From Rikenellaceae bacterium (GTDB lineage Bacteria; Bacteroidota; Bacteroidia; Bacteroidales; Rikenellaceae): DNA of 64,000 bases. Below, in pieces: positions 53,362-55,368 of this stretch (positions are counted from its first letter, which is position 1; every line of letters starts with the position of its first letter). The notes beneath the pieces were generated by a model. The model did no database searches. It saw only the letters and a program-made list of their open reading frames with translations, and was not told the DNA's origin. The stretch spans positions 1 to 64,000 of the forward strand of contig SUZQ01000002.1 in NCBI GenBank assembly GCA_015059875.1, written 5' to 3'. Both the position numbers and the translations under genes were made by a program.

Positions 53362-53621
53362 TTTGTAGTCGAATTGCGGAATACGCAGTTTATTAGATGG
53401 CATTTAGGCTATTGCGTTACTGAAAAACGACCAATTTATTAAGTAAACAGGCAATAGGCACAACTAAATGCTCACGCTGTTTTGGCGTGGGTTGTGCTTA
53501 TGTTTACGGGTGCTTGGTCGTACCTTCAGTATTGAGCATGATTCACGCTTCTCGTTTTTAGTTAAGCGGTTGTCATCTGACGGCAATGGAATTTTATTGT
53601 TTAACTAAAAACTTATTTATT
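53362..53621 (+). ncRNA. Candidate structured 5' UTR with pseudoknot potential
   Basis: Promoter-like TACTTTTG near 53359; nested helices TACTGAA/TTCAGTA, ACGACC/GGTCGT, GTAAAC/GTTTAC, GCACAAC/GTTGTGC, CACGC/GCGTG, plus crossing CTATTGC/GCAATAG. Confidence 0.55.
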
Positions 53622-54095
53622 ATGAAGACAAAATTTATTCTTTTGGTTGCGCTTTTTGCGCTATTTTCAACAACCGTATCTGCTCAATTTTACAACCGCA
53701 AGAAGGTTGCTATTACAGAGGTTGTGGACAAGAGTGGCGATGTTGCGCCTGGCACAAAGACCTTTATCCGTAGTGCATTGACCGATGCAATTACCAATTC
53801 AGATGGCTACGAGGGTTATGCTTCAATCAGCTTTCTTTCGCTTGAAATGAACTTTGACAAGACTGGAAATATCTCTTCGGCATCGCTTACCTATGTTAAG
53901 AAGCAGTTGATGGAGTATATTCTTGTGTCGGAGGTTACGCCATTGGACAAAAAGACCGTATTATTGAGCGCACGCATTGTAAATACATCTAATGGCAAAA
54001 TCGTAGCATCATCTTCGGTACGCACCTATGCAGATATTGACTACTTACGCTCGGCTTGTAACAATCTCGCTTATAAATTGGTGGGTGCAATCTAA
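53622..54095 (+). CDS. Secreted CsgG/LpoB-like protein
   Basis: Signal peptide MKTKFILLVALFALFSTTVSAQ; KKVAITEVVDKSGDVAPGTKTFIRSALTDAITNSDGYEGY; LMEYILVSEV. Confidence 0.55.
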   Translation: MKTKFILLVALFALFSTTVSAQFYNRKKVAITEVVDKSGDVAPGTKTFIRSALTDAITNSDGYEGYASISFLSLEMNFDKTGNISSASLTYVKKQLMEYILVSEVTPLDKKTVLLSARIVNTSNGKIVASSSVRTYADIDYLRSACNNLAYKLVGAI

Positions 54096-54107: not shown

Positions 54108-55103
54108 ATGAAACTGAAAATATCTATTTTACTGCTCTTGTGTGTAGCGGCGTTCGGTAATGGCTCCGCTACGGCACAGGAGTTTGCAATATTTGCTAAG
54201 CAGAAAGTCGTTGTTGCCGATATTCGCGATATGAATGACCGTCATTTGAGCGATGGTGTAAAGCAGTGTATCCGTCAGGGCATTATAGATGCTTGCACTA
54301 AATCAAGCGACTATGAGGTATATGAGATAAATATAGAGGATGTAAAAAAACAACTCACTGCAAGTGGGCAGAAAGTAAGTTTCTCAACTATCTGCAATGC
54401 GATAGGCAAAAGGGCTGACTATATTATATTTACAAATGTTAAGTTGAGTTCCTCGGAGGTTGGTGCGCAAAATATAACTATCTACATCAGCTCCTCGCTC
54501 TACCGTATTGCAACAGGCTCGGAGATGAAGACAAGGTTTGCAGAGGCTGAACAGACTTCGTCGTCTATATTGTTGGCGACATCTAAATTGATTTCAGAAC
54601 TGCTCGGCATAAATGTATCTGCTCAAACTCAACCCTCGCAGGGAACACGCTCTTCGACATCGTATCAGCAATCGCAATATTATCAGCCTGAATACTCTCA
54701 ATCTGTACAGCCAGTAGGAAAGATGTATAAGGTAGGAGATGTGTACGATATCAATGGCAAGCAGGGTGTTATTTTTGTTGTAACACCTGATGGCAAGCAC
54801 GGAAAAATGGTTAGTATAAACCAAACCAAATCAAATTGGTCAAGTGCCAAATATTGGTGTAGCAGTCTTGGTAATGGTTGGCGATTGCCTACAAAAGAAG
54901 AACTACTTGCGATATATAGAAATAAAGGAGTTTTAAACGCGGTACTTGCTGCGATGGGTGATGAAATTCCATATTCATGGCATTGGTCGTCATCAGATCA
55001 TTCTAACTCAGATTGTGCGTGGTATGTCATTATGGACAATGGTCGCACCGACTACACCAGTAAGTACACCGACATCTATGTACGCGCCGTGTCCACTTTT
55101 TAA
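54108..55103 (+). CDS. Secreted CsgG/LpoB-like N-terminus + C-terminal CLec-fold (DUF1566/FISUMP-like) domain; candidate DGR variable protein
   Basis: KQKVVVADIRDMNDRHLSDGVKQCIRQGIIDACTKSSDYEVYEI; NGWRLPTKEELLAIY...WHWSSSDHSNSDCAWYVIMDNGRTDYTSKYTDIYVRAVSTF. Confidence 0.65.
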   Translation: MKLKISILLLLCVAAFGNGSATAQEFAIFAKQKVVVADIRDMNDRHLSDGVKQCIRQGIIDACTKSSDYEVYEINIEDVKKQLTASGQKVSFSTICNAIGKRADYIIFTNVKLSSSEVGAQNITIYISSSLYRIATGSEMKTRFAEAEQTSSSILLATSKLISELLGINVSAQTQPSQGTRSSTSYQQSQYYQPEYSQSVQPVGKMYKVGDVYDINGKQGVIFVVTPDGKHGKMVSINQTKSNWSSAKYWCSSLGNGWRLPTKEELLAIYRNKGVLNAVLAAMGDEIPYSWHWSSSDHSNSDCAWYVIMDNGRTDYTSKYTDIYVRAVSTF

Positions 55104-55133
55104 GAATTAGACTTTTGGCTTTATGGCTCTTCA

Positions 55134-55170
55134 CCCTCCGCAGAAAACCTGCGGAGGGCTTGTTTTTTGC
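55134..55170 (+). terminator. GC-rich hairpin with T-run downstream of CLec gene
   Basis: CCCTCCGCAG-aaaac-CTGCGGAGGG-cttgtttttt. Confidence 0.8.
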
Positions 55171-55183
55171 TGACAAGATCATA

Positions 55184-55279
55184 GGGGCTGTTAAGGGCGG
55201 TTAGAGGTTGTTAAGGGTAGTTAGTATATCGGCATTTACGCTAATAGCCGCTAACAGCCTCTAATTACCGCTAATAACC
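55184..55279. repeat. Inverted arms built from 10-bp tandem units (copy 2)
   Basis: ggctgttaag|ggcggttaga|ggttgttaag|ggtagttagt ... ctaatagccg|ctaacagcct|ctaattaccg|ctaataacca. Confidence 0.8.
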
Positions 55280-55368
55280 ACTATAAAATGAAAAACTCTC
55301 GTCTTTTTTTATTATCTTTGCAAAGATAATAAGAGGATAAACCAATATTAACCAAAATAACTGATATC

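Follow-up and report, generated by a model that had tools for sequence, protein, structure and literature searches.

The window analysed here is a stretch of 64,000 nucleotides from a Rikenellaceae contig, and one of its genes (54108–55103) raises a double question: is its 3' end the variable region (VR) of a diversity-generating retroelement (DGR), and if so, what rewrites it? An initial annotation, made from the sequence letters, had read it as such a region and, with neither a reverse transcriptase (RT) nor a template repeat (TR) in the window, as a remote target. The same lack extends to the rest of the assembly (G000; 2.07 Mb, 85 contigs, 85% complete), in which, window included, we found no RVT_1 domain and no DGR RT, no second copy of the VR, no TR-type 3' end and no TR core pattern. 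A self-contained DGR, either in the window or elsewhere in the assembly, was thus rejected, RT and TR both being absent, and the site was classed as a DGR target and not as a complete DGR. Three Lcl_C paralogs of the same genome were considered as additional VRs and set aside: C44 ends in VRAVSKF but has 16 non-adenine mismatches to the template described below, and C1 and C25 do not match it. The window site is the only one in G000 that carries the TR imprint.

The target gene and its template

The features of the locus are collected in Table 1; the ORF and its C-terminus are as first described. The Lcl_C assignment, which agrees with the DUF1566/C-type-lectin fold proposed initially, is based on a Pfam score of 47.1 bits (cut-off 34.9, E 3.4e-12) over residues 238–328 of 331, and the VR lies within this domain, at the 3' end of the gene. 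DUF1566 is reported to be the commonest Pfam domain among DGR targets (PMC6642488). The whole protein, modelled with AlphaFold from its single sequence, reached a pLDDT of 33, too low to be of use; a low-confidence model matched the C-terminal domain of Legionella Lcl as well as C-type lectins, the fold match being weak because the model is poor. By inspection, the N-terminus resembles a secretion signal, and the N-terminal domain is paralogous to the upstream protein (BLASTP E 5e-5), whose FlgO-like label was also given by inspection, its resemblance to FlgO being weak (E 0.0017) and below the cut-off. The window protein, with its FlgO-like N-terminus that looks secreted, is not a fusion of an effector (TIR or kinase) to a C-type-lectin sensor, and it had no match among the PADLOC families.

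Table 1. Features of the target locus and its flanks (window positions).
Feature	Position	Strand	Description
Upstream neighbour	53586..54095	+	FlgO-like, secreted; paralog of the target protein's N-terminal domain
Target gene	54108..55103	+	331-aa protein; C-terminal Lcl_C domain carries the VR
Lcl_C domain	54819..55091	+	DUF1566, C-type-lectin-like, residues 238-328; Pfam PF07603
Proposed rewritten tract of the DGR VR	55017..55082	+	TR codons 2-23 (A W N V N M N N G N T N N N N K N N N N Y V)
VR 3' end, IMH-like	55083..55100	+	CGC GCC GTG TCC ACT TTT; silent sites unhomogenised
Noncoding motif	55106..55114	+	ATTAGACTT; common downstream of most VRs, consensus ATTTAGGCTT; the TR lacks it
GC-rich hairpin	55134..55158	+	10-bp stem, 5-nt loop (CCCTCCGCAG AAAAC CTGCGGAGGG), 31 nt past the stop

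A pattern search for Asn-rich templates returned the sequence TGTGCGTGGAATGTCAATATGAACAATGGCAACACCAACAACAACAATAAGAACAACAACAACTATGTGCGTGCCGTCTCCGAATTTCAG in two genomes, G128 and G157, in both cases just upstream of a DGR RT, and a DNA search added G162 as a third carrier. Three sister species thus share this TR, with a DGR RT following it each time. Its protein sequence, CAWNVNMNNGNTNNNNKNNNNYVRAVSEF, is nearly the one that had been guessed (W N V N x N N G N x N N N N K N N N N Y V R). The search of the genome suggested at the outset thus failed in the 85%-complete G000 and succeeded, for RT and TR alike, in G128, G157 and G162. The initial annotation had counted a genome without RT and TR against a VR; G000 is such a genome, but this is outweighed by the template in sister species and by some 80 sibling VRs.

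The window VR (TGTGCGTGGTATGTCATTATGGACAATGGTCGCACCGACTACACCAGTAAGTACACCGACATCTATGTACGCGCCGTGTCC) aligns with the TR without gaps and differs from it at 13 of 31 adenines and at 4 of 50 other bases (Fisher p 5e-4), all four non-adenine changes being silent. When the rewritten tract is taken alone, 13/31 adenines and 2/35 non-adenines are changed. Twelve Asn codons are changed, as had been listed, and the varied codons are indeed all NNY; the template, though, holds 13 such codons, N311 being left unchanged. The third bases of these codons are the same as in the TR in 13 of 13 cases (TTCTCCCCTCCCC in both), an agreement whose chance is about 6e-6 given NNY codons and the T:C ratio of the gene. 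Among about 128,000 positions on the two strands of the window, the runner-up has 23 non-adenine mismatches. The third-position C richness reported earlier was borne out: 12 of codons 308–328 end in C (12/21, compared with 15% in codons 1–300), and 17 of the 21 end in a pyrimidine (49% in the first 300 codons). Among 21-codon windows across 11 neighbouring genes, only 1.6% reached the level of this stretch for pyrimidine and only 0.5% for C. The extent first given to the VR had to be redrawn, as the rewritten tract followed by an IMH-like 3' stretch. Within the tract, two silent changes (GGT and GTA) are private to the window, meaning that the exact template copy for this VR has not been seen. 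Altogether, these data make it almost certain that the 3' end of the gene is a DGR VR that departs from the sister TR nearly only at adenines.

A family of variable regions and its putative 3' signals

We then looked at the genus as a whole, represented by Alistipes sp. and Rikenellaceae MAGs that are mostly of ruminant origin. VR 3' ends of the window type numbered 111, spread over 37 of the 180 genomes; this tally includes a few from related local DGRs (e.g. G006:C31, G118:C47). There was one in G000, against 7 in G114, 9 in G104, 11 in G045 and 13 in G056 (SIG174, 98% complete). From a scan of the fetched loci, 79 VRs of the window's template were retained, and these preserve 978 of their 1027 AAY third bases (95%). 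The silent third bases flanking the tract behave differently, since they differ in 75% of cases at codon 1, 78% at codon 24, 32% at codon 25 and 53% at codon 26. This jump in silent divergence delimits the homogenised tract, which is followed by an unconverted 3' end. A second TR haplotype, in which the third bases of codons 8 and 9 are swapped, accounts for 12 of the 79.

When VRs of one genome are compared in pairs, some 56% of adenine sites and usually 3–7% of the others differ, with higher non-adenine values in G114 (10%), G162 (13%) and G163 (19%, including one diverged VR). In G056, for instance, 1148 of 2046 adenine sites differ compared with 117 of 2310 others, and in G104 the figures are 260/465 and 15/525. 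Even where two genes share about 91% identity in their upstream DNA, 17/31 adenine sites differ between them, and 0/35 others. In eight genomes without a matching RT, the core shows zero non-adenine departures from the prophage TR. Over all VRs, adenines outside AAY codons (in AAG, ATG, ACC and TAT) are changed in about 5% of cases compared with about 54% inside, which suggests either strong selection or a context effect of the RT.

The proteins that carry these VRs are either short and secreted or fused to TIR (PF13676, TIR_2), protein kinase (PF00069; Ser/Thr) or PEGA domains, those with TIR_2 or Pkinase joining an effector domain to a variable C-type-lectin sensor. Large Ser/Thr-kinase-Lcl_C and TIR-Lcl_C families, each ending in a VR, were seen in G056 (L181–L183, L372–L379) and G104 (L174–L177).

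At the 3' end, the TR reads ..TCCGAATTT and the VRs read ..TCC(G/A)CTTTT. In the window, this stretch behaves as would be expected of an unconverted homing or priming region (IMH) by analogy with Bordetella phage BPP-1 (PMC3240598). A noncoding ATTTAGGCTT-like motif follows in 58 of the 79 VRs, mostly at one distance, where shuffled sequences lead to an expectation of 0.6. The GC-rich 10-bp hairpin that had been placed about 30 nt after the stop was recovered with a DNA fold z of −4.2 and a run of T after it. It is a candidate retrohoming hairpin or cruciform and also scores as a terminator, as noted initially. Hairpins of at least 7 bp lie downstream of 43 of the 79 VRs. The layout of VR, IMH-like end and candidate hairpin resembles that of BPP-1, in which moving the IMH together with the hairpin was enough to redirect homing to a heterologous gene (PMC3240598); BPP-1, however, has a single target in cis, and its hairpin loop is GRNA where the window has AAAAC. 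A Rfam search gave no relevant match. Some internal VRs of tandem-domain proteins lack both downstream motif and hairpin, which weighs against the reading preferred below; such tandem-Lcl_C proteins (L178, L311, L320, L306, L332, L323) nevertheless vary at the template adenines. Further downstream in the window, the gap before a hexosaminidase-like gene contains purine-rich repeats of 10-bp periodicity (GTTAAGGGCG, 55182–55332) and a perfect 12-bp palindrome (55309–55332).

The prophage DGR and the possible source of the reverse transcriptase

Only three genomes of the genus had the matching RT (95–100% identity). In G157 the gene order is VR protein, avd, TR and RT, adjoining phage baseplate genes; the DGR of that prophage is complete, none of RT, Avd, TR and VR being absent. 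G162 carries a phage transposase (PHROG 310), an AAA ATPase and a Mom-like gene, and its RT contig continues into genes for a sigma-70 factor, a PDZ protease and mannitol dehydrogenase; the G128 contig continues into a TonB receptor gene. Host and phage genes together on the RT contigs indicate an integrated, Mu-like prophage of the hankyphage kind. The prophage's own VRs lie in a tail gene and in an early gene; the latter (L173:2421-3242) is upstream of the transposase and shows the haplotype with swapped third bases. Two G162 contigs (G162:C42/C63, the end of L172 and the start of L171) both break within the TR and have differing 5' halves (CAWNVNMNNGNT.. and NSWNLNWNNGNL..), meaning that the prophage template exists in alleles or in two copies.

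A strict pattern for the exact TR had no match in IMG/VR. A degenerate pattern returned 21 contigs, mostly of other TR families, with one match (L232/L272) whose TR encodes an identical protein sequence and whose RT shows 82% identity. For phage RTs in INPHARED, identity was at most 49%.

How could the window VR have been written? By analogy with known DGRs, the TR RNA would be copied by the error-prone RT with Avd, with misincorporation opposite adenines, and the cDNA would replace the matching stretch, the last ~80 bases of 54108–55103. Through misincorporation at adenines, the Asn (AAY) codons of the template would become NNY codons of random sequence within the lectin-like face that binds the ligand. 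RT and TR would act in trans from a mobile Mu-like prophage, itself gained and lost over time, while host genes would retain the landing site, namely the IMH-like end, the conserved downstream motif and usually a hairpin. The products would be receptor-like proteins with a diversified ligand-binding tip, secreted here and fused to TIR or Ser/Thr kinase domains elsewhere.

From the sequence comparisons, the window VR was very probably written in trans by a DGR of the prophage-type family, and with its 13/13 third bases it looks recent. That the prophage specifically supplied the RT is a reading we favour with moderate confidence. No DGR RT at all was found in 31 of the 37 VR-bearing genomes, nine of which are at least 90% complete, including G056 with its 13 VRs, and the chance that random incompleteness explains the absence in these nine is about 3e-12. 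The driver thus looks mobile, although MAG bins often lose mobile elements, which makes the absence of RT weaker evidence than completeness suggests. Host VRs of the family were seen alongside the matching prophage in G162 alone, and its TIR-fused VRs have 5–14 non-adenine mismatches; in none of the genomes did the prophage coincide with host VRs of recent rewriting.

The older state of the host VRs in G162 gives real weight, for any single site and the window's too, to the alternative that a DGR once acted and was then lost, leaving a frozen, ordinary Lcl_C gene. We consider this unlikely, if a serious contender. The missing RT in G000 and the two private silent changes in the tract are in its favour, and Treponema denticola offers a precedent, with multiple dispersed targets and isolates that retain targets after losing the RT and TR of their core DGRs, read as remnants (PMC4891356). 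In that case, however, the remnants of a lost core DGR belong to one species, whereas here the template identity is held across many species and the RT is on a prophage. Silent third bases are 95% kept in the tract and differ by 32–78% just outside it, eight species bear the imprint of one template without drift, and the window keeps all its third bases; together, the kept silent sites and drift-free imprint point to recent rewriting in most of the family.

It is quite unlikely that the window species has a dedicated chromosomal DGR hidden in the unassembled ~15% of the MAG, with 54108–55103 as an ordinary remote target within one genome. The incompleteness of G000 leaves room for it, and remote targets driven by a genome's own RT have been described for cyanobacteria and for Thiohalocapsa (PMC7517822, PMC10907252), but the many RT-free VR-bearing genomes, the nine well-assembled ones above all, argue against it, as does the fact that the matching RT occurs only in a prophage context. 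An ordinary Lcl_C/FISUMP protein resembling the template by chance or codon bias has practically no probability left: W-x-V-x-M-x-x-G-x-T...K....YVRAV is indeed the family consensus and paralog C44 has a similar end with no TR match, but the T/C pattern at the third bases is exact, DNA identity is confined to non-adenine sites, the adenine rule holds in about 79 VRs, whether compared inside one genome or across several, and the TR in three sister genomes refutes this reading.

Relation to known systems and to other DGRs of the genus

Trans-acting diversification by a prophage-type DGR, the reading we prefer for the window, has partial counterparts. Hankyphage-type Mu-like Bacteroides prophages are likewise transposable, reside in gut Bacteroidales and combine RT, Avd and TR with a VR in the tail fibre, and their DGR was shown to be active in lysogens; their reported target, however, is the phage's own tail fibre (PMC12135933), whereas here the TR imprint is also found in dozens of host genes, mostly in phage-free genomes. 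The remote variable proteins of cyanobacteria (PMC7517822) are dispersed C-type-lectin paralogs with 3' VRs far from the RT, many fused to Ser/Thr kinase or to TIR-like domains, but they belong to another phylum and their genomes contain both RT and TR, whereas here these are usually absent and found in prophages, and the domain here is of the Lcl_C type. The antigen-sensor candidates of Thiohalocapsa and other multicellular bacteria (PMC10907252) also join VR sensors to TIR, kinase or NTPase effectors, and their targets in trans were likewise recognised from a perfect non-adenine match to a distant TR. There, TR and RT share the genome and variation is proven metagenomically, whereas the window case crosses genomes and is known from sequence comparison alone.

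In the literature covered, which excludes preprints and most subscription journals, we found no paper showing a prophage DGR acting on host chromosomal genes. DGR surveys seek the VR beside the RT, and remote targets would, by their own account, escape the approach of Roux et al. (PMC8144416); in this genus, targets far outnumber RTs and lie mostly in RT-free genomes. We put forward, only tentatively, a split and shared adaptive repertoire in which receptor genes of the host, encoding fusions to kinase, TIR, PEGA or secreted-lectin parts and keeping standardised landing sites, would be diversified by a DGR that is not the host's own but borrowed from a Mu-like prophage circulating between species. 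Such a genus makes testable the idea of a phage that supplies somatic-like hypermutation to host receptor genes, and it links the kinase and TIR lectin sensors of gut Bacteroidales to the antigen-sensor idea from multicellular bacteria.

One window-type VR, with 2 non-adenine mismatches, was found in a genome labelled Bacteroidaceae (L305, Bacteroidaceae bacterium RGIG333), hinting at transfer beyond the genus or at mislabelling. The genus is rich in DGRs, several RT-bearing loci having TR/VR pairs with adenine-only mismatches, and at several of the RT loci the VRs end in VRAVSA(F/L) where the TR has VRAVSEF. Other DGR lineages of the genus (L085–L090, L078–L088) have FISUMP-like VRs that end in VRPVQE or VRCVRE, with repeated TR-like open frames near the RT.
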